NCBI RefSeq assembly: GCF_000425485.1
Contig: NZ_KE384383.1
Span: 124,117-188,116 of the forward strand
Length of the DNA: 64,000 nucleotides
Direction of reading: 5' to 3'
DNA from: Flavobacterium tegetincola DSM 22377
GTDB lineage: Bacteria; Bacteroidota; Bacteroidia; Flavobacteriales; Flavobacteriaceae
Part shown: positions 212 through 28,122 of the stretch, piece after piece
Numbering within the stretch: position 1 is the first letter of the stretch
How the letters are laid out: the number at the start of each line of letters is the position of its first letter
Program-made: the position numbers and the translations under genes
Notes under the pieces: generated by a model
The model's input: only the letters and a program-made list of their open reading frames with translations
The model's database searches: none
What the model was told of the DNA's origin: nothing

Positions 212-3200
212 ATGTATCTCAACTGTCATTCTTATCACTCTTTACGTTACGGCACCATTCCGTTAGAGACACTTGTTGCTCAAGCCGTGCATTATGGCGT
301 TACTGCTATGGCATTGACGGATATCAATACAGTTACCGGAATTTATGATTTTATCACGGCTTGCAAACACGTAAACATAAAACCATTAATTGGAATTGAA
401 TTTCGCTGTGGCACTGAATTTCGATATATTGGTTTGGCCAAAAATGCCAACGGCTTGGCAGAAATGAACCGGTTTTTGACAGATCATAATTTTAAAAATA
501 TTTCTTTGCCGTTACAAGCGCCCGATTTTGAAAATGTAACTGTTATTTATTCATTTATAAACCCTCCTTCAACATTAAAAGCACACGAATACTTGGGCGT
601 CAGACCCGAAGAAGTGCGAAAGTTATTCAGTTATACCGGAGATTTTTCGAAATTGGTCATTTGGCAACCCGTTACTTTTACGTCGAAAAAAGAATACCAA
701 CTCCATAAAATTTTGCGAGCCATAGATCAAAATAGTTTGCTCTCCAAATTGAGTCCTTCTGATGTTGCAACTCCATTTGAAGTCATGGTCAATCAAGAAC
801 GTTTATTAAAAGCTTTTGCCGATTATCCACAAATTAGTGCCAACACAAATCAACTCATTTCTGACTGTAATTTTGACTATGAATTTGGCAAACCCAGAAA
901 TAAAAAACATTACACAAATAATAGTGAAAGCGACATTGCATTACTCACCACATTGGCACAACAAGGTATGGATTGGCGGTATGGCAAAAATAATCAAGCG
1001 GCAAAAAACCGTGTGGCAAAAGAATTAAAAGTCATTCATGAACTTGAATTCAGCGGTTATTTTCTAATCACTTGGGATATCGTTCGGTACAGCAACAGTC
1101 GGGGTTTTTTGCACATTGGAAGAGGAAGTGGTGCCAACTCAATCATCGCCTATTGTTTAGGAATTACGGATATTTGTCCGATTGAATTGGACTTGTATTT
1201 TGAACGTTTTTTGAATGAAAATCGCAAGAGTCCACCTGATTTTGATATTGATTGGAGTTGGCAAGAACGCGATGTTATTTTAGAATATATTTTCAATCGG
1301 TATGGTAGAGAACATGTTGCTTTCTGCGGCACGAATGTCGAATTTAAATACCGTTCTATTTTTAGAGAAGTGGGAAAAGTTTTTGGTTTGCCTAAAGAAG
1401 AACTCGACCATCTTGCTAAAAATCCGATGAAACTCCACGAAACCAATAGCGTAGTTCGCGAAGTGCAAGAATACGGCATGTTATTGGAAAAATATCCCAA
1501 TCAAAGAAGTATGCATTCGTGTGGAATTCTGATTTCGGAAGAACCGATTACAAATTTCACGCCGCTAGAAATGCCGCCAAAAGGATTTCCGATTGTGCTT
1601 TTTGACATGCATGTAGCCGAAGCAATTGGTTTTGAAAAGTTTGATATTTTGAGTCAGCGTGGTATTGGAACTATTGATGATACGGTAAAATTGGTTGCTA
1701 AAAATCAGGGAATTCAAATAAACATCCGTGATACTTCCATTTCAAAGAACCAAGCAGATGCCAATGTGTTTTTGTCAAAGGGAAAAACAATTGGCTGTTT
1801 TTACATTGAAAGTCCTGCAATGCGTGGTTTGTTACGACGATTGAAATGTGATAATTATAAAACATTAGTCGCTGCTTCATCTATCATTCGGCCTGGTGTG
1901 GCCAAATCGGGGATGATGAAAGAGTATATTTTTCGGCACAACCATCCGGATAAATTTGAATATTTTCATCCCGTTTTTGAGGAACAATTGGGCGAAACCT
2001 ACGGTATTATGGTGTATCAAGAAGACGTCATTAAAATTGCTTTGCATTATGGAGGATTACCTGCCGCGGATGGCGATATTTTGCGAAGGGCCATGAGTGG
2101 AAAAGGACGTTCATTGAGTGCGTTGCAAAAAGTAAAAGAGCATTTCTTTGAAAGTTGTGCCAATAATGGACATCCTGAAGCATTGAGTCAGGAAATTTAT
2201 AGGCAAATTGAATCGTTTGCAGGCTACTCGTTTTGCAAAGCCCATTCGGCTTCGTATGCGGTAGAAAGTTACCAAAGTTTGTATTTAAAAGTGCATTTCC
2301 CAATTGAATTTATGGTCGCGGTTATCAATAATCAAGGTGGTTTTTACCGTATAGAAGTGTATGTCCATGAAGCAAGAATGGCGGGAGCTGCAATTCATAA
2401 TCCGTGTGTCAATAAAAGCGAATTTGCCGCTACATTATATGGAGCAGATGTGTATTTGGGATTCATGCATTTGCAAGGTTTGCCTGTAAAATTGGCGGAA
2501 GCCATCATAAAAGAACGTTCAATTAAAGGTGAATTTAGTTCATTAGAAGATTTCTGTACGCGTGTCATCATTGGTTTAGAAAGTTTGAAATTATTGATTT
2601 TTATTGGTGCTTTCAGAAGTTTGGGCAAGACCAAAAACCAGTTGTTGATTCTTGCCAGTATGCTTTTTCATGCTGTTGCCAAAACGGACCAAGTTCTTTT
2701 GCTGCAAGAAGCGGTAAAAGAATACCATTTGCCTCAATTGGAACGATCGCTTTTTGAAGATGCTTTTGATGAAATTGAATTGTTGGGATTTCCCACTTCA
2801 TTTACGCCTTTTGAATTGTTGCAGACTACTTTTCGGGGCGATGTGATGGCAAATAATTTGGCACAACACCATAAGGAACAAGTTCGGATGCTTGCTTATT
2901 TAATTTCCCGCAAACAAGTACCTACGGTTCGTGGGACGATGTATTTTGGGACTTGGATTGATGCAGAAGGCACTTATTTTGATACGGCACATTTTCCCGA
3001 TAATCTGCAACATTTTCCTTTTCAAGGCGGAGGTTGTTATTTGCTATCGGGTGTTGTGGAAGTCGATTATCATTTTCCAACAGTTACTATTGTGCAAATG
3101 TCTAAAATGCCTTTTGTTGCTGATCCAAGATATACTGATTCGAAAGAGCATCAATTCCGAACGCAAGAAAATTTAAAAGAGGATATCAGTGCCACACAAC

Positions 3201-3259
3201 GAGCGCCTTATCCGAGAGAACACGAAATTGGGTTGCCGCGGTTTAAGATGGTTTTGTAG
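212..3259 (+). CDS. dnaE2: DNA polymerase III alpha subunit, short second copy (DnaE2/ImuC type)
   Basis: C-family DNA polymerase of 1015 residues. The order is PHP domain (about 1-70), palm and fingers (about 260-620), helix-hairpin-helix region (about 740-830) and a C-terminal OB-like part. The catalytic aspartates are visible in PDFDID (D343, D345) and in the EKFDIL motif (D478). The length is that of the damage-inducible DnaE2 family, shorter than the roughly 1450-1500 residues usual for the replicative DnaE of Bacteroidota. The PHP metal ligands look degenerate: the usual TDH is TDI at 37-39, so this domain is probably not a nuclease. In relatives such genes follow a Y-family polymerase (imuB/dinB), which would lie to the left of the window. 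Role inferred: translesion synthesis. Confidence 0.85.
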   Translation: MYLNCHSYHSLRYGTIPLETLVAQAVHYGVTAMALTDINTVTGIYDFITACKHVNIKPLIGIEFRCGTEFRYIGLAKNANGLAEMNRFLTDHNFKNISLPLQAPDFENVTVIYSFINPPSTLKAHEYLGVRPEEVRKLFSYTGDFSKLVIWQPVTFTSKKEYQLHKILRAIDQNSLLSKLSPSDVATPFEVMVNQERLLKAFADYPQISANTNQLISDCNFDYEFGKPRNKKHYTNNSESDIALLTTLAQQGMDWRYGKNNQAAKNRVAKELKVIHELEFSGYFLITWDIVRYSNSRGFLHIGRGSGANSIIAYCLGITDICPIELDLYFERFLNENRKSPPDFDIDWSWQERDVILEYIFNRYGREHVAFCGTNVEFKYRSIFREVGKVFGLPKEELDHLAKNPMKLHETNSVVREVQEYGMLLEKYPNQRSMHSCGILISEEPITNFTPLEMPPKGFPIVLFDMHVAEAIGFEKFDILSQRGIGTIDDTVKLVAKNQGIQINIRDTSISKNQADANVFLSKGKTIGCFYIESPAMRGLLRRLKCDNYKTLVAASSIIRPGVAKSGMMKEYIFRHNHPDKFEYFHPVFEEQLGETYGIMVYQEDVIKIALHYGGLPAADGDILRRAMSGKGRSLSALQKVKEHFFESCANNGHPEALSQEIYRQIESFAGYSFCKAHSASYAVESYQSLYLKVHFPIEFMVAVINNQGGFYRIEVYVHEARMAGAAIHNPCVNKSEFAATLYGADVYLGFMHLQGLPVKLAEAIIKERSIKGEFSSLEDFCTRVIIGLESLKLLIFIGAFRSLGKTKNQLLILASMLFHAVAKTDQVLLLQEAVKEYHLPQLERSLFEDAFDEIELLGFPTSFTPFELLQTTFRGDVMANNLAQHHKEQVRMLAYLISRKQVPTVRGTMYFGTWIDAEGTYFDTAHFPDNLQHFPFQGGGCYLLSGVVEVDYHFPTVTIVQMSKMPFVADPRYTDSKEHQFRTQENLKEDISATQRAPYPREHEIGLPRFKMVL

Positions 3260-3297: not shown

Positions 3298-3954
3298 TTA
3301 TTTTAAATACTTTTTTTCAAATTGATCGGTTGTTATGTTCCGTAATACAGTTGCTTTACCGGCATGATAAATTTGATTGTCTTCGGTATCTTTTTCAATA
3401 TTGCATCCCATACCGATAATGTTATTCTTACCAATTTTAACATTTTGTTGGATAGCGGCATTCATTCCTATAAAGGAGAAATCGCCGATGTGAACATTGC
3501 CACCAAAGGTACAATTGCTCAACATACAGTGTGCTGAAATAGTCACATGATGGCCCATCGCTGTTCCAATTAAAAATGAGTTATCGCCAATAGATACGAA
3601 AGGACCGATTTGAGAACCAGCACTTACAAATGTGTTTTCACCATAAGTCAAATCTTTATACGTAATAGCTTTTTGCGAAATATGACTTACCATCTTATAT
3701 CCTTTGCCTTTTGCTAAATCAAAAATACGCTGTCTCTCTTTGTTTAATCCTAAAGCAATAAACAATTGGTACTCTTCTGGAGGATAACAGGACTCAATCA
3801 TTTCAAAATCGATTACGGGCAAATTGTTAATTTCTCTCTCAACAATGTATTTGCTTTCGATACAAAATCCGCAAACAGAAAATTGTGTTTCATTAGTAAA
3901 TTCAAAGTGCATTGCTTCTGCAAATTTTCCTACGCCGTAAATTATAATTTTCAT
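3298..3954 (-). CDS. Sugar O-/N-acyltransferase of the NeuD/PglD family
   Basis: 218 residues. The N-terminal third (MKIIIYGVGKFAEAM) is the nucleotide-sugar-binding Rossmann-like domain of PglD/NeuD enzymes. From about residue 95 the chain is a left-handed beta helix with hexapeptide repeats (VSIGDN, VHIGDF, VKIGKN). GHHVTI carries the histidine at the place of the catalytic base in PglD. The family transfers an acetyl or longer acyl group to the amino or hydroxyl group of a sugar. The gene ends 38 bp from the end of dnaE2 (convergent) and starts 269 bp from the acyl carrier protein gene (divergent). I infer that it uses acyl groups made by that operon, for example on a surface polysaccharide sugar. 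The substrate is unknown. Confidence 0.8.
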   Translation of the reverse strand: MKIIIYGVGKFAEAMHFEFTNETQFSVCGFCIESKYIVEREINNLPVIDFEMIESCYPPEEYQLFIALGLNKERQRIFDLAKGKGYKMVSHISQKAITYKDLTYGENTFVSAGSQIGPFVSIGDNSFLIGTAMGHHVTISAHCMLSNCTFGGNVHIGDFSFIGMNAAIQQNVKIGKNNIIGMGCNIEKDTEDNQIYHAGKATVLRNITTDQFEKKYLK

Positions 3955-4000
3955 TATTAAAATATTAGAGTTTTTTAGGTGGTAGCCATTTTAGCCATTT

Positions 4001-4028
4001 CAAAAGTAATAATTTTTAGACAACTACA
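4001..4028 (-). promoter_or_regulatory. Predicted Bacteroidota promoter of the NeuD-like gene
   Basis: On the minus strand the -7 element TACTTTTG (4001-4008) fits TAnnTTTG, and a TTG lies 17 bp upstream (4026-4028) as the -33 element. It lies about 46 bp from the start codon at 3954. Confidence 0.45.
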
Positions 4029-4168
4029 ATTTATAATTTATACATTTCACATATTTTTTTTTTAATCATAAAACTTAGTTTCATACCTAGTAAAGGTACG
4101 TTTCATAGTGAAATAACTAGTATTCAACATAAAACAGTTAATTTAACAGTATAAGATTTGCTAAAAAC

Positions 4169-4198
4169 TTTAACATAACGTTAATATGGTTACCTTTG
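4169..4198 (+). promoter_or_regulatory. Predicted Bacteroidota promoter of the acyl operon
   Basis: TACCTTTG at 4191-4198 is a perfect TAnnTTTG -7 element. TTTA at 4169-4172, 18 bp upstream, is a one-base variant of the TTTG -33 element. The ATG of the acyl carrier protein gene follows 25 bp later, so one promoter could serve the six genes 4224-8288. Confidence 0.55.
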
Positions 4199-4223
4199 TA
4201 CACTAATTCATATACACCTAATT

Positions 4224-4487
4224 ATGACAAAAGAAGCCATCCTTATGAAACTTAAAGAAGTTATAAAGCCTTATTCACAAAATCCAGAAGCGCTTGAAAA
4301 TATTTCAGCAACTACAGATTTCACTAATGATTTAAAGATCAATTCTGCAAATTTAGTGGATGTCTTTTTAGATGTAGAAGAAGCATTTGAGATTGAATTG
4401 GAAAATTCAAGTTTGGAAAAGATTGCAAATGTATACGATGCTATTGACGTTATAGAATTAAAATTGCAAGAAAAAAACCAAGCCTAA
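4224..4487 (+). CDS. Acyl carrier protein
   Basis: 87 residues, acidic, with the four-helix carrier-protein pattern. Ser41 in KINSANLVDV stands at the phosphopantetheine attachment site. The usual DSL motif is replaced by NSA, which marks it as a specialised carrier and not the housekeeping AcpP. It is the first gene of an apparent operon with reductase, dehydratase, ketosynthase and phosphopantetheinyl transferase genes. It would carry the growing acyl chain as a thioester and hand it to an acyltransferase. Confidence 0.85.
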   Translation: MTKEAILMKLKEVIKPYSQNPEALENISATTDFTNDLKINSANLVDVFLDVEEAFEIELENSSLEKIANVYDAIDVIELKLQEKNQA

Positions 4488-4561
4488 TATTTTTACGTAT
4501 ACTTAATTAATTTTTAATTGCATTTAGGGCTCTAATAAATCAGAAACGCAAAAATTTAATT

Positions 4562-5356
4562 ATGGAAAATCAATTTAGAGATAATAATTATTGGGCTCTT
4601 ATATTGGGAGGTAGCAGCGGTATTGGTTTAGCATCAGCTTTGAAGCTTTCCAAAGAAGGAATGAACATCATAGTAATTCATAGAAATTCTAGGTCTGAAA
4701 TGCAAGCTATAAACAATTCCTTTGCCGAAATTATCGATAACAAGGTACAGTTTATATCCTTTAACATTGATGCGGGCAATTCAGAAAAAAGAAAGCAAAC
4801 CATAGAAGAATTAAAATCTCAGTTCGGTGAAGGTAAATTAAAATGCATGATCCACAGCATTGCGAAAGGAAATCTAAAAGCTATGGTCGATGCCAATGGA
4901 CCAGAACTTCAGAAGGATGACTTTATGATTACCCTTGAAGCCATGGCCATAAGTTTATATGAATGGACAAAAGATTTATTCAAAGAAAATATGTTTACTA
5001 AGGATACGCGAATTTTATCTTTTACAAGTGAAGGAAATACAAAAGCATACAAAAATTATAGTGCAGTTTCTGTTGCTAAAGTTGCACTAGAAGCTATTTC
5101 TAGAAATATTGCATTAGAATTTGCGCCTTTTGGAATTCGATCCAATTGCATACAAGCAGGCGTGACCGACACCCGATCTCTAAGAATGATCCCAGGCAGT
5201 GAGAAAATGAAAGAAATAGCCATGCATAGAAATCCCTTTGGTAAAATAACTACGGCCGAAGATGTTGCAAATGTGGTTTACTTACTTTGCAAAGACGAAG
5301 CTACATGGATTAATGGTGCTATAATTCCTGTTGATGGCGGTGAATCAATAGTTTGA
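4562..5356 (+). CDS. SDR-family reductase, FabL-like enoyl-ACP reductase
   Basis: 264-residue short-chain dehydrogenase/reductase. The glycine-rich NAD(P)H motif GGSSGIG is at 16-22 and the C-terminal PVDGGESIV is typical of FabG/FabI/FabL proteins. The active-site pair is Tyr166 and Lys173 (YSAVSVAK). This is the Y-x6-K spacing of enoyl-ACP reductases such as FabI/FabL, not the Y-x3-K of ketoreductases. The best reading is reduction of the enoyl intermediate to a saturated acyl-ACP, although ketoreduction cannot be excluded from sequence alone. The gene starts 74 bp after the carrier protein gene and ends 13 bp before the dehydratase gene. Confidence 0.75.
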   Translation: MENQFRDNNYWALILGGSSGIGLASALKLSKEGMNIIVIHRNSRSEMQAINNSFAEIIDNKVQFISFNIDAGNSEKRKQTIEELKSQFGEGKLKCMIHSIAKGNLKAMVDANGPELQKDDFMITLEAMAISLYEWTKDLFKENMFTKDTRILSFTSEGNTKAYKNYSAVSVAKVALEAISRNIALEFAPFGIRSNCIQAGVTDTRSLRMIPGSEKMKEIAMHRNPFGKITTAEDVANVVYLLCKDEATWINGAIIPVDGGESIV

Positions 5357-5369
5357 TAATAGAAGATAG

Positions 5370-5819
5370 ATGACAACAACAGAAATATTTAAAAAATTAC
5401 CGTTTTCTGCACCGTATTTATTTGTAGATGAGTTACTTTACGTAAATGAAAAAGGAGCAAGCGGAACATACACTTTTAAGGCAGATTTAGACTTTTTTAA
5501 AGGACACTTTAAAGATTTACCTGTTGTTCCAGGTGCTATTTTAATTGAGACAATGGCACAAATTGGTGGTGCAAGCGTAAGTATTTACTTATCATCTTTG
5601 GATGAAAACAAAAATGAAAATCAAGTGAGTGTTGCTACCTCTTATAATGTAGAATTCTTTAAACCCGTTTATCCAAATGATAAAATTACGGTTGTTTCTG
5701 AAATTGTATATTTTAGATTTGGCAAACTCAAGACCAAAGTTGTAATGACTAATGAAAGAGATGAGAAAGTATGTGAGGGAGTCATTGCAGGAATCTTAGC
5801 AAAACAGAGCAATTTATGA
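5370..5819 (+). CDS. FabZ-like 3-hydroxyacyl-ACP dehydratase
   Basis: 149-residue single hotdog domain. His46 in FKGHFKDLPVVPG and Glu60 in ILIETMAQIGG are the catalytic pair of FabA/FabZ dehydratases. It should remove water from 3-hydroxyacyl-ACP. The stop overlaps the ketosynthase start (ATGA at 5816-5819), so the two are translationally coupled. Confidence 0.85.
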   Translation: MTTTEIFKKLPFSAPYLFVDELLYVNEKGASGTYTFKADLDFFKGHFKDLPVVPGAILIETMAQIGGASVSIYLSSLDENKNENQVSVATSYNVEFFKPVYPNDKITVVSEIVYFRFGKLKTKVVMTNERDEKVCEGVIAGILAKQSNL

Positions 5820-7093
5820 AAAATAGAGTTGTAATAACAGGACTTGGTGTAGTATCGCCAAATGGTGTGGGACTTCCTGCATTTAAAGATGCCATTAAAA
5901 ATGGGGTTTCGGGAATCAGATTAATTGATCGTTTGGTTGAATTAAAATTTGAAGCTCAAATTGGAGGTATACCGGAAATTACGGAAGAACTGAAAGCGCA
6001 GTATTTTACGCCCTTAGAATTAATGAAATTTAATGCTAGTGGAATATTGTATGGATTGATTGCAGGAGTTGATGCATGGAATGACGCTGGCTTAAAATTA
6101 GGAAATATAGATGAGGAGCCGGATTGGGACAGCGGAATGATTTTTGGAATTGGTTCTATTGCAGCAGATAAACTACGAGATGGTATCGTATTAATTGATA
6201 AACTGCAAGTAAAACGGTTAGGAAGTAATTTTGTAATTCAAACTATGCCAAGCGGTATAACTGCTTATCTTGCAGGTAAGCTTGGTGTAGGTAATCAAGC
6301 AACTACCAATTCATCCGCTTGCGCAACTGGAACAGAAAGTATTCTAATGGCATACGAACGAATTAAATCGGGAAAAGCAAAACGCATGCTAGCAGGAGGT
6401 TGCAATGATAGTAGTCCCTATACCTGGGCAGGATTTGACGCCTTGAGAGTTGCCACTTATAAACACAACCATGAACCCGAAAAAGCTTCGCAACCAATGG
6501 GGAGAGATGCTTCGGGGTTTGTAGCAGGAAGCGGTGCAGGAGCACTAGTTTTAGAAACATTGGAAAGTGCATTGGAGAGAGGAGCACATATTTACGCTGA
6601 AATTTTAGGGGGAGACATGAATACGGGCGGTCAAAAAGGAGATGGAAGTATGACTTTGCCTAATAGTGTTGGTGTGCAGCGATGCATCAAGGAAGCTATC
6701 AAAGACGCGGGTATTCATGCAGATGATATTGACGTCATCAACGGCCATTTAACTTCTACTGGTAAGTGTAATTTGGAAATTAAGAACTGGTCGGAAGCTT
6801 TAAACAGAAAAGGTAAAGATTTCCCTTACATCACGGCTCTCAAATCAATGATTGGTCATACGCTCGGAGCTGCCGGTGCAATTGAAAGTATTGCGGCAAT
6901 TTTACAATTAGAAGAAGGCTTTTTAGTTCCAAATTTAAATTGTAAAAATATTGATCCAGTAATCTTGGATCTGGTTGACGAAGAAAAAATAACAAAGGAA
7001 TATATAAAGAAAGATTTGAATATTATTGCAAAATCAAGTTTTGGATTTGGTGATGTAAACGCTTGTGTGATCTATAAAAAGTATACAGGATGA
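5816..7093 (+). CDS. Beta-ketoacyl-ACP synthase, KAS II (FabF) type
   Basis: 425-residue thiolase-fold condensing enzyme. The Cys-His-His triad is visible as Cys169 (SSACATG), His311 (GHLTST) and His348 (MIGHTLGAAGA). The first histidine motif is normally AHGTST; here it reads GHLTST, an unusual form suggesting a specialised enzyme. It would condense acyl and malonyl units on the carrier protein. The locus has no malonyltransferase and no obvious Y-x3-K ketoreductase, so these steps are presumably borrowed from primary fatty acid synthesis. Confidence 0.85.
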   Translation: MKNRVVITGLGVVSPNGVGLPAFKDAIKNGVSGIRLIDRLVELKFEAQIGGIPEITEELKAQYFTPLELMKFNASGILYGLIAGVDAWNDAGLKLGNIDEEPDWDSGMIFGIGSIAADKLRDGIVLIDKLQVKRLGSNFVIQTMPSGITAYLAGKLGVGNQATTNSSACATGTESILMAYERIKSGKAKRMLAGGCNDSSPYTWAGFDALRVATYKHNHEPEKASQPMGRDASGFVAGSGAGALVLETLESALERGAHIYAEILGGDMNTGGQKGDGSMTLPNSVGVQRCIKEAIKDAGIHADDIDVINGHLTSTGKCNLEIKNWSEALNRKGKDFPYITALKSMIGHTLGAAGAIESIAAILQLEEGFLVPNLNCKNIDPVILDLVDEEKITKEYIKKDLNIIAKSSFGFGDVNACVIYKKYTG

Positions 7094-7118
7094 TAAAAGC
7101 AATTTTATTAATTATTTT

Positions 7119-7682
7119 ATGATTGGAAATGATATAGTAGATCTTCTTTGTGCTAGAAAAGAAAGTAATTGGAAACGTAAGGGTTATCTAAATAAGATTT
7201 ATTCATCTTCTGAACAAAGACTAATTCATTCCACACCCAATGCGGAAATAATGGTTTGGATTTTATGGGTCATGAAAGAAGCTTCCTATAAAGCTAACCA
7301 TAGAATTACCGGGTTGAGAGAATATGCTCCAATAAATATTAAATGCAGCATTAAATATGTGGAACACAACGTATACTTTGGAACCGCAGTCTACAATGGT
7401 TTGGAATACAATACAAAAACAATTGTATATCCGGATTATATTCACAGCATTGCATTGCACAACTCATCTGGTTTTTCTAAAGTCACAGAAATTTTGATTC
7501 CAAATTTCCCATCAAATTACCAAGAACTTTTAAAAATAAAAAAGTACTTATTGCCATCGGAATGTATAATCAAAGACGATCTAGGTATTCCCAACATATT
7601 TAATAATCTTACTAAAGAAATTATGCCTATTTCCATTAGTCATCATGGAAATTTCTTAATTTTGATCCACATAAAAGAGTAA
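7119..7682 (+). CDS. 4'-phosphopantetheinyl transferase
   Basis: 187 residues, Sfp/AcpS superfamily. IGNDIVDL at 2-9 holds the first magnesium ligands and W50..KEASYK (Lys53, Glu54, Lys58) is the second signature. The family moves phosphopantetheine from CoA to the serine of a carrier protein, here very probably Ser41 of the carrier encoded at the head of the operon. A dedicated activating enzyme inside the locus implies that the carrier is poorly served by the housekeeping AcpS. It lies 25 bp after the ketosynthase gene and 6 bp before the acyltransferase gene. Confidence 0.85.
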   Translation: MIGNDIVDLLCARKESNWKRKGYLNKIYSSSEQRLIHSTPNAEIMVWILWVMKEASYKANHRITGLREYAPINIKCSIKYVEHNVYFGTAVYNGLEYNTKTIVYPDYIHSIALHNSSGFSKVTEILIPNFPSNYQELLKIKKYLLPSECIIKDDLGIPNIFNNLTKEIMPISISHHGNFLILIHIKE

Positions 7683-7688
7683 AAAAAC

Positions 7689-8288
7689 ATGGCTTACCTT
7701 TCACAAGAAGAATTATCAAAAATTGGTTTTGCGTCATTTGGACAAGAAGTCTATATCTCAGATAAAGTATCGATTTATAATCCATCAAAAATTTCTCTGG
7801 GATCTTTTGTTCGCATAGACGACTTTTGTCTACTCTCTGCTGGAGAGAAAGGAATAGAAATTGGAGATTACGTGCATATATCTTGTTACGCATGTTTAAT
7901 CGGAAATGAGAAAATTACCGTTAGTAATTTCGTGGCCATCAGTATAAAAGCAACAATCTTATCAAGCACGAGTGACTATTCTGGTGACACGCTACCCTCA
8001 CTAAAAAAATTTGATACCGATAGTGATGTAAGAGAGGGATTAACTTCGGTAATAAGTAAACCAGTAATTCTCGAAACACATACGGGTATCGGGGCTAATA
8101 CTGTAGTTATGCCTGGAGTAACAGTGGGGAAAGGTTCAGCAATTGGTGCACAATCTGTAGTATATGAAGATGTAAATGAATGGGGTATATACGTCGGAAA
8201 CCCAGTTCGGTTCGTGAAAAAAAGAAGCCAAGCAGCTTATAATGAAGCTGAAGAGATTCTGCGTAAAAGAAGAGAGAATAATAAGTAA
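7689..8288 (+). CDS. Hexapeptide-repeat acyltransferase (LbH)
   Basis: 199-residue left-handed beta-helix acyltransferase of the maltose/galactoside acetyltransferase and WbbJ-like group. Hexapeptide rungs run from about 20 to 165 (VSIYNP, ISLGSF, IEIGDY, TGIGAN, VTVGKG). The proline-containing VYVGNPVRFV-like tail (here IYVGNPVRFV) is the usual cap, followed by a charged C-terminal helix. As last gene of the acyl operon it probably moves the finished acyl chain from the carrier protein to a sugar or other small acceptor; the acceptor is not known. The end of the operon is marked by a 224 bp non-coding stretch. Confidence 0.8.
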   Translation: MAYLSQEELSKIGFASFGQEVYISDKVSIYNPSKISLGSFVRIDDFCLLSAGEKGIEIGDYVHISCYACLIGNEKITVSNFVAISIKATILSSTSDYSGDTLPSLKKFDTDSDVREGLTSVISKPVILETHTGIGANTVVMPGVTVGKGSAIGAQSVVYEDVNEWGIYVGNPVRFVKKRSQAAYNEAEEILRKRRENNK

Positions 8289-27567: not shown

Positions 27568-28122
27568 TTAAAACAAATCTAATAAAATCACCTCAATTTC
27601 ATGTTCCAAACCCGCATAATTTCGAGCAGAACTAAAGTAGTAATCTTCAGGTAACGATACACATTTATCCTTCACAGGGTTGTCATGAATGTAGGATACC
27701 TTTTGTTTTATAAATGAATTACTATAAATATGTTCGGCATGATAACCATCTTGCCACACCTTATAATGTTGGTCTCTTTTTAAATGTTCACACGATTTTC
27801 TAAAATACGCTAGCATCCATTCTCTTCTACTTTCGGGCTCTTCAATAATAGTGTTTATAATCTTTTTTGAAGTAAACTTTTTAAAATCCCTAATAACATC
27901 AGACAGTATAAAACTATTAGTGGCTTTGCACAGCAAGTGAATATGACTACTCATTATCACATAAGCATAAATTTCTAAACCTTTATTTTCCTGACAATAA
28001 CGCAAAGCATTAGTTATAATATATTTCTGATTGAGCCTTGTAAAAACGTCTATCCAACCCACTGTGGTTATTGTAATAAAATAGGCTTCTTCTGTTGTAG
28101 TAGCTTTATATTTTGTTGACAT
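27568..28122 (-). CDS. REP-associated tyrosine transposase (RAYT, Y1/IS200-like)
   Basis: 184 residues of the Y1 transposase fold. The HUH metal motif is His60-Ile-His62 in MSSHIHLLCKA. The C-terminal YIHDNPVKDKCV carries the candidate nucleophile Tyr144 and is the usual signature of this group, followed by PEDYYFSSARNYAG. These enzymes nick single-stranded REP hairpins and spread them. The length is full and no stop or frameshift is seen, so the gene may be active. Inverted REP copies on both sides support the assignment. Confidence 0.88.
   Translation of the reverse strand: MSTKYKATTTEEAYFITITTVGWIDVFTRLNQKYIITNALRYCQENKGLEIYAYVIMSSHIHLLCKATNSFILSDVIRDFKKFTSKKIINTIIEEPESRREWMLAYFRKSCEHLKRDQHYKVWQDGYHAEHIYSNSFIKQKVSYIHDNPVKDKCVSLPEDYYFSSARNYAGLEHEIEVILLDLF

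Follow-up and report, generated by a model that had tools for sequence, protein, structure and literature searches.

The window analysed here is a stretch of 64,000 nucleotides from the genome of Flavobacterium tegetincola DSM 22377. An earlier note had placed seven genes of acyl-chain and acyltransferase families at positions 3298-8288, and all seven were found in the ORF list as intact frames whose Pfam families match those named. The genes and one upstream element are listed below.

3298..3954, minus strand: NeuD/PglD-like sugar acyltransferase, a divergent neighbour (PF00132, PF17836; best NCBIfam match NeuD).
4191..4198, plus strand: TAccTTTG upstream of the cassette, a match to the Bacteroidota -7 element.
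4224..4487, plus strand: dedicated ACP, NSA motif with Ser41 (PF00550, 19.8 bits, just below the 20.8 cut-off).
4562..5356, plus strand: SDR of the FabL-like enoyl-ACP reductase type, Y166-x6-K173 (PF13561; best NCBIfam match FabL; best solved match 3oic).
5370..5819, plus strand: FabZ-like 3-hydroxyacyl-ACP dehydratase (DH), His46 and Glu60 (PF07977; best NCBIfam match FabZ).
5816..7093, plus strand: FabF-type ketosynthase (KAS), C169-H311-H348 and K343, GHLTST (PF00109/PF02801; best NCBIfam match FabF).
7119..7682, plus strand: 4'-phosphopantetheinyl transferase (PPTase) (PF01648, 36 bits against a cut-off of 25).
7689..8288, plus strand: hexapeptide left-handed beta-helix acyltransferase, proposed amino-sugar N-acyltransferase (PF00132; closest to 3vbi-3vbp).

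The best NCBIfam matches (FabL, FabZ, FabF and NeuD) all fell below their own curated cut-offs. The solved chain 3oic, best match of the SDR (E 1.8e-27), is named enoyl-ACP reductase. For the PPTase, there was no NCBIfam match, and a comparison with solved structures gave nothing useful. The six plus-strand genes (the cassette, 4224-8288) run in the order ACP, SDR of the enoyl-reductase type, FabZ-like DH, KAS, PPTase and hexapeptide acyltransferase, with no ketoreductase. Because the gaps between them are only 74, 13, -4, 25 and 6 bp, they look like one transcription unit. No TTTG partner was found 17-24 bases before the TAccTTTG element.

Catalytic residues, whose roles are well established in these families, were complete in all five acyl proteins. 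Counting all aligned rows, the window sequence included, we found Ser41 of the ACP in 53/53, Tyr166 and Lys173 of the SDR in 29/29, His46 and Glu60 of the DH in 56/56, Cys169, His311, Lys343 and His348 of the KAS in 61/61, and Asp5, Glu54 and Lys58 of the PPTase in 45/45. The NSA and GHLTST motifs had been regarded as odd. Asn40 and Ser41 are present in 53 of the 53 ACP rows and Ala42 in 52, and G310-H-L-T313 in all 61 KAS rows; these motifs characterise the family as a whole and do not point to degeneration. The carrier is also not the housekeeping ACP of the genome, the case that had been named as speaking against a side pathway: a much stronger ACP match lies at G000:C9:104982, beside a FabF-like KAS (C9:103536), and on account of this pair a role of the cassette in primary fatty acid synthesis was rejected.

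One genome from another family, G750, carries all six cassette genes in identical order within an exopolysaccharide locus. Glycosyltransferase, EpsG and CapA genes flank the G750 cassette on one side and Wza, Wzc and ABC-export genes on the other (the ABC genes and several glycosyltransferases were identified by eye), and a DesI-type aminotransferase and NeuD lie approximately 10 kb upstream. The window KAS is 71% identical to its G750 counterpart and the hexapeptide enzyme 62-63%. Window and G750 form one clade in the KAS tree (support 100/100) as well as in a joint tree of SDR, DH, ACP and PPTase (100/99). The proposal that the genes form a joint acyl pathway with a sugar acyltransferase as its last step thus gained support, from the shared gene order, from the likeness to 3vbi-3vbp and from the aminotransferase, RmlA and RmlB genes of the own genome (see below). 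The NeuD-like gene had been counted as part of the same unit and drops out of it, since it is not adjacent to the cassette in G750 and is only 28% identical to the NeuD there.

Conserved co-occurrence in relatives, which the earlier note had proposed to look for, was not observed. The hexapeptide gene occurred in 1/100, 1/395 and 2/197 genomes of the three sets searched (one of the last two without the acyl module), and the only complete cassettes found were those of the window and G750. In a search for insertion-site synteny, 7 of 10 genomes had a DEAD-helicase match, the nearest of which (82%, G059) has other neighbors; no empty site was seen among them. This rarity, and the lack of linked polysaccharide genes in the own genome, would fit a non-functional relic or a chance gathering of unrelated genes. 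We regard that explanation as very improbable, given the identical order in another family, the complete catalytic residues and the intact frames.

The cassette and the polysaccharide locus of the own genome are not linked. Counterparts of the polymerase, flippase, glycosyltransferase and DesI-type aminotransferase genes of the G750 locus are present on another contig (C2), where reciprocal best hits included CapA (66%), TupA (65%), Wzx (62%), the aminotransferase (50%) and EpsG (45%). RmlA and RmlB of this C2 locus scored above cut-off; the aminotransferase had DesI as best match, but below the equivalog cut-off. EpsG was detected in 4/395 genomes, both cassette bearers among them. The chance of another genome sharing EpsG is 3/394 (approximately 0.008). 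This figure serves as a base rate and cannot count as a test, since EpsG was picked as a marker once the two genomes were known to share it.

The closest solved chains to the hexapeptide enzyme are 3vbi-3vbp, which match it over nearly its full length (single sequence, E 3.5e-38, residues 3-192; profile, E 3.2e-46, residues 3-193). We take these chains to be AntD, the anthrose N-acyltransferase. AntD uses a CoA donor (3-hydroxy-3-methylbutyryl-CoA) and is not known to use an ACP or to have a dedicated ACP module. In Kluyvera cryocrescens, the only organism returned by a scan of named relatives with two narrow peptide patterns, and in G656, the gene immediately preceding a relative of the hexapeptide gene encodes a DesI/VioA-like aminotransferase; in the stretches read, neither has an acyl module beside the transferase. 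In one viral contig, another relative follows a short frame that is DegT-like. Among 19 more distant viral relatives, 15 had no DesI/VioA-like aminotransferase in the stretch and none had one directly adjacent. Judged from gene content and similarity, sugar acylation by the cassette is supported because of the G750 exopolysaccharide context, the counterparts of that locus in the own genome and the likeness to 3vbi-3vbp, and the most likely acceptor would be dTDP-4-amino-4,6-dideoxyglucose.

A different acceptor appears unlikely. The enzyme might O-acylate the polysaccharide, as the deposition of 3vbi-3vbp as galactoside O-acetyltransferase could suggest, or it might modify a bacillosamine-type sugar, for which the own C2 locus holds a LegC/PglE-like (LegC-family-like) aminotransferase together with NeuD and sugar-transferase genes. 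Flavobacterium psychrophilum is predicted, in the part of PMC6519341 available to us, to acylate Qui2NAc4N via a dedicated ACP. However, the Kluyvera and G656 relatives stand behind aminotransferases of the DesI/VioA type, not the LegC type, and none of the genes in the 80-kb stretch read from G750 received the LegC-like label (further DegT-family genes are present outside it in that genome). Speaking against N-acylation by the cassette, a NeuD-type acyltransferase follows the aminotransferase in the own genome, G750, G029 and G316, and its activity might suffice to N-acylate the amino group proposed as target of the hexapeptide enzyme; in G029 and G316, the locus is present without the hexapeptide enzyme.

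The earlier note did not mention that the five acyl genes correspond to an acyl module found in type III PKS clusters, and that one such cluster also exists, unlinked, in the own genome. The window SDR, DH, KAS, ACP and PPTase are homologous to this module and share common descent with it. In 101 of 106 other loci, KAS homologues lie beside a DpgA-like type III PKS, and the module is linked there to an FAD oxidoreductase, a methyltransferase and the PKS (46 loci, from the two groups read last and including six short loci, are in the locus table and not in the trees). These 101 PKS loci contained KAS in 101, DH in 100, ACP in 99, PPTase in 74 and SDR in 46 cases. Because its acyl genes belong to a module with this association, the cassette looks borrowed from a natural-product pathway. 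Its neighbors are loci of family f7 in the KAS tree and, in the four-gene tree, loci from genus g1 and from family f5, so that the two conflict as to the donor lineage. The koreenceine pathway (PMC6498172) was considered as a match and is a different pathway, as far as the portion of that paper available to us describes it.

The own PKS locus (contig C3) contains the FAD oxidoreductase, methyltransferase, PKS, KAS and ACP; within this locus, DH, SDR and PPTase are absent, and it is the only one of the 101 without DH. The cassette might therefore be the displaced acyl module of this cluster, acting in trans to provide the DpgA-like PKS with its acyl starter, with the hexapeptide enzyme as a tailoring enzyme or chance neighbor; the window does carry a DH and a PPTase of the right type. 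We consider this improbable. The C3 locus still has a KAS and an ACP of its own, the window KAS is only 57% identical to the C3 KAS as against 71% to that of G750, where a comparable type III PKS was sought and not found (best 28% identity, E 2e-13), and the hexapeptide gene occurs in none of the 101 PKS loci, yet in both cassettes. No type III PKS gene lies beside the window cassette or that of G750, the own PKS being on C3. An origin as a duplicate of the C3 module was rejected, since in the KAS tree the partner of the C3 KAS is G059 (100/100) and that of the window KAS is G750 (100/100). Because the C3 locus alone among the 101 lacks DH, it is conceivable, although doubtful, that the imported module serves both pathways, supplying the acyl group of a polysaccharide amino sugar and also, in trans, the DH and carrier activation lost by the resident cluster.

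Our preferred reading, with a probability of about 0.64, is that the six genes are a mobile acyl-donor cassette for surface polysaccharide, acting jointly through an acyl-ACP to N-acylate viosamine. The dedicated ACP would be armed by the PPTase, and the chain elongated on it by the FabF-type KAS with malonyl units drawn from primary metabolism. A borrowed ketoreductase, followed by the FabZ-like DH and the FabL-like enoyl reductase, would yield an acyl-ACP with a saturated chain of short or medium length, and the hexapeptide enzyme would pass this chain on to dTDP-4-amino-4,6-dideoxyglucose (viosamine) at its 4-amino group. The donor sugar would come from RmlA, RmlB and the DesI-type aminotransferase of the C2 locus, whose Wzx/EpsG/Wzc/Wza-type genes would then polymerise and export the product. 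The acyl genes themselves would go back to those that form the acyl module in the flavobacterial type III PKS cluster.

Among the closest known parallels is the viosamine island of Pseudomonas syringae and the glycosylation island of P. aeruginosa PAK. According to the gene descriptions in the available part of PMC3927599, on which the comparison rests, it comprises vioA, vioB, vioS, vioR and acp; the aminotransferase VioA makes the sugar and the product is N-(3-hydroxy-1-oxobutyl)-viosamine. Both systems have a dedicated ACP, a ketosynthase and a reductase feeding a sugar acyltransferase, and the cassette, like the island, holds the ACP and the sugar acyltransferase within one unit. The island has a KAS III (vioS) and a 3-ketoacyl reductase (vioR), whereas the cassette has a FabF-type KAS and a FabL-like SDR, adds a dehydratase, its own PPTase and a 3vbi-like acyltransferase, and is unlinked to the sugar genes. 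By analogy, the cassette appears to work like the viosamine island, and we do not file it as a member. The wfpC-wfpG genes of F. psychrophilum, proposed for a 3,5-dihydroxyhexanoyl group, also combine an O-polysaccharide-specific ACP, two ketosynthases and a 3-ketoacyl reductase with a sugar N-acyltransferase (a PglD homologue), as judged from the gene descriptions in the part of PMC6519341 available to us; unlike the own cassette, they lie within the O-polysaccharide cluster. AntD, closest in the acyltransferase itself, differs in its CoA donor, and the type III PKS acyl modules differ in lacking the hexapeptide enzyme.

No description of the product of the flavobacterial type III PKS acyl modules was found in the literature searched, which was available in part; purified cassette proteins would be a handle on the chain that these modules make. 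It seems that a type II acyl module, complete in itself, has left natural-product synthesis and now takes part in decorating surface glycans, and the cassette predicts an N-acyl amino sugar in the polysaccharides of two Flavobacteriales. If both pathways were served, acquisition of a glycan cassette would have rewired a natural-product pathway, and if the DH were shared, this would cleanly illustrate how resident genes become dispensable once a module is imported.

Seven genes of the window were characterized, of which the six on the + strand form a closely spaced cassette:

3298-3954, opposite strand to the six: NeuD/PglD-like gene
4224 to 8288, + strand: ACP, SDR, FabZ-like dehydratase (DH), KAS, PPTase and hexapeptide enzyme, in this order

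All seven frames were present as the earlier note had described them, and their family assignments were confirmed. Catalytic residue sets of five proteins are complete: with the window counted, Ser41 of the ACP is identical in 53/53 aligned rows, Tyr166-x6-Lys173 of the SDR in 29/29, His46/Glu60 of the DH in 56/56, Cys169/His311/Lys343/His348 of the KAS in 61/61 and Asp5/Glu54/Lys58 of the PPTase in 45/45. The solved chain nearest to the SDR, 3oic, was deposited as enoyl-ACP reductase, and the top NCBIfam match was FabL. The ACP motif NSA and the KAS motif GHLTST, previously thought unusual, proved common to the whole family (N and S in 53/53 aligned rows and A in 52/53; G-H-L-T in 61/61). Malonyltransferase and ketoreductase had been considered missing, and indeed neither is encoded in the cassette. 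A DNA polymerase III alpha of short length (1015 aa) with a PHP domain occupies 212-3259, immediately before the NeuD-like gene, and an IS200/Y1-type transposase-like protein (PF01797) is found at 27568-28122.

The earlier note had also asked whether the carrier might be the only ACP of the genome, and thus the housekeeping one. This was ruled out by a far stronger ACP match at C9:104982 of the same genome (55 bits vs 19.6 for the window ACP), which adjoins a FabF-like KAS at C9:103536. The window KAS has a single close paralogue in this genome (C3:72657, 57% identity).

Close KAS homologs (E up to 1e-60) were detected in 28/99 other genomes, all of the same genus (28/60 genus members). With the own genome counted, the SDR query matched 12/398 genomes of the genus and the KAS query 72/395 genomes of the order. 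Surroundings of every match from these KAS and SDR searches yielded 106 loci besides the window, including the own C3 locus; six were viewed only 1.5 kb either side and a few others end at contig edges. A type III PKS was present within 8 kb of the KAS in 101/106 loci, and the window genes are therefore members of a module usually linked to type III PKS. Of these 101 PKS loci, 100 contained DH, 99 ACP, 74 PPTase and 46 SDR, and none had the hexapeptide enzyme. The PKSs contain chalcone-synthase domains, with DpgA as top NCBIfam match, under cut-off, and are preceded by a methyltransferase and an FAD oxidoreductase. Type III PKSs represent 10.74% of gene clusters in Flavobacteriaceae and Weeksellaceae (PMC10734526), and the literature search, in which sources were covered in part, found no description of the product of a type III PKS cluster with this module. 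In three genomes the KAS match contained one in-frame TAA (L097 in G316, L107 in G690 and G704:C2:638253-639509), possibly reflecting decay of the PKS module. KAS loci without PKS were the following:

L111: cassette of genome G750
L215 (genome G729), 5715-7704: isolated DH-KAS-ACP trio of the same family; the 13 kb covered contain no PKS, no PPTase and no hexapeptide enzyme
L118 and L218: contigs of only 5.5 and 3.4 kb
L109: 4.3 kb stretch

G750 belongs to another family of the same order, and its cassette has the gene order of the window, with identities of 54% (ACP), 61% (SDR), 61% (DH), 71% (KAS), 42% (PPTase) and 63% (hexapeptide enzyme); the window SDR is at least as close to several PKS-linked SDRs (up to 65% identity). 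The best type III PKS match in G750 had just 28% identity (E 2e-13). Window and G750 were joined with support 100/100 in the KAS tree (62 rows), 100/99 in the SDR+DH+ACP+PPTase tree (26 rows), and 97 (DH) and 82 (SDR) in quick single-gene trees. In both careful trees this pair nests amid type III PKS modules, but its neighbouring lineages differ between the two; neither tree has an inferred root, and the outgroup branch of the KAS tree is very long. The simplest reading would therefore be that the acyl genes of the cassette descended from a PKS module.

Among the genomes seen with a PKS locus, only the own genome also carries the cassette. Its PKS locus (L033:7657-12172, on C3) contains PKS followed by KAS and ACP, and is the sole one of the 101 that lacks DH. 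SDR and PPTase are also absent from the locus, where only 33 bp separate ACP from the next gene; the lack of PPTase says little, since PPTase is absent from 27/101 PKS loci. Arrival of the cassette may have made the resident DH of this locus dispensable, but the absence of DH would fit decay of the PKS pathway equally well, and a further DH may lie elsewhere in the genome.

The hexapeptide enzyme was nearest to 3vbi-3vbp (E 3.5e-38 with the single sequence, 3.2e-46 with the profile), which we take to be AntD, N-acylating dTDP-4-amino-4,6-dideoxyglucose; its depositors named the molecule galactoside O-acetyltransferase. Two relatives outside the cassette (38% each), in Kluyvera cryocrescens and G656, immediately follow a DesI/VioA-like aminotransferase. 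In overlapping samples, the enzyme was found in 1/100 relatives (limit 1e-40) and 1/395 genomes of the phylum (limit 1e-38), the own genome in both cases, and in 2/197 genomes of G750's family (limit 1e-35), one being G656, where no acyl module accompanies the enzyme in the stretch covered. On a contig catalogued as viral (L132:5368-8133, IMGVR_UViG_3300016472_000673), a short DegT-like frame, a hexapeptide enzyme (46%), SDR and KAS III follow one another, a gene set resembling the viosamine island. Among 19 other, more distant viral relatives (<=36%), a match to the aminotransferase was present in the surrounding sequence of 4, no closer than 1.1 kb, and absent from that of the other 15.

The G750 cassette is preceded by glycosyltransferases, TupA-like ATP-grasp, CapA-like (PGA_cap), EpsG and flippase genes, with a DesI-type aminotransferase and NeuD ~10 kb upstream, and followed by Wza/Wzc-like and ABC-export genes (ABC genes and some glycosyltransferases were assigned by eye). 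In the own genome, the top DesI-type aminotransferase match (C2:281976) lies inside a polysaccharide locus. This locus encodes RmlA and RmlB, both over cut-off, as well as Wzx, EpsG, CapA, TupA, Wzc and Wza; it also contains another aminotransferase, which is LegC-like, together with NeuD and a sugar transferase. Reciprocal best hits relate this locus to that of G750: CapA 66%, TupA 65%, Wzx 62%, glycosyltransferase 55%, aminotransferase 50% and EpsG 45%, and additionally two sugar-nucleotide enzymes at 70%. The EpsG polymerase occurred in 4/395 genomes (own, G750, G029 and G316), two of which, own and G750, have the cassette; G029 and G316 contain a locus of the same kind, with aminotransferase and NeuD, and neither cassette nor hexapeptide match. 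Sharing by 3/394 other genomes (~0.008) gives a base rate but carries no weight as a test, because the polymerase was picked after its sharing by own genome and G750 was known. In all four loci the aminotransferase is followed by a NeuD-type enzyme, which could acylate the same amino group and counts against a link between cassette and sugar; the cassette would therefore provide an alternative or additional acylation. We infer that the cassette is linked in trans to the polysaccharide locus.

The data show which genes the cassette contains, their order and active sites, its genomic context and its kinship; the chain, the acceptor and the link in trans are predictions. Ketoreductase and malonyltransferase would be supplied by primary metabolism, and a saturated chain would be expected because both DH and enoyl reductase are present. 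Such a product would differ from 3-hydroxybutyryl, reported for the Pseudomonas viosamine island (PMC3927599), and from dihydroxyhexanoyl, proposed for F. psychrophilum (PMC6519341). The cassette would make an acyl group whose probable acceptor is an amino sugar of a surface polysaccharide.
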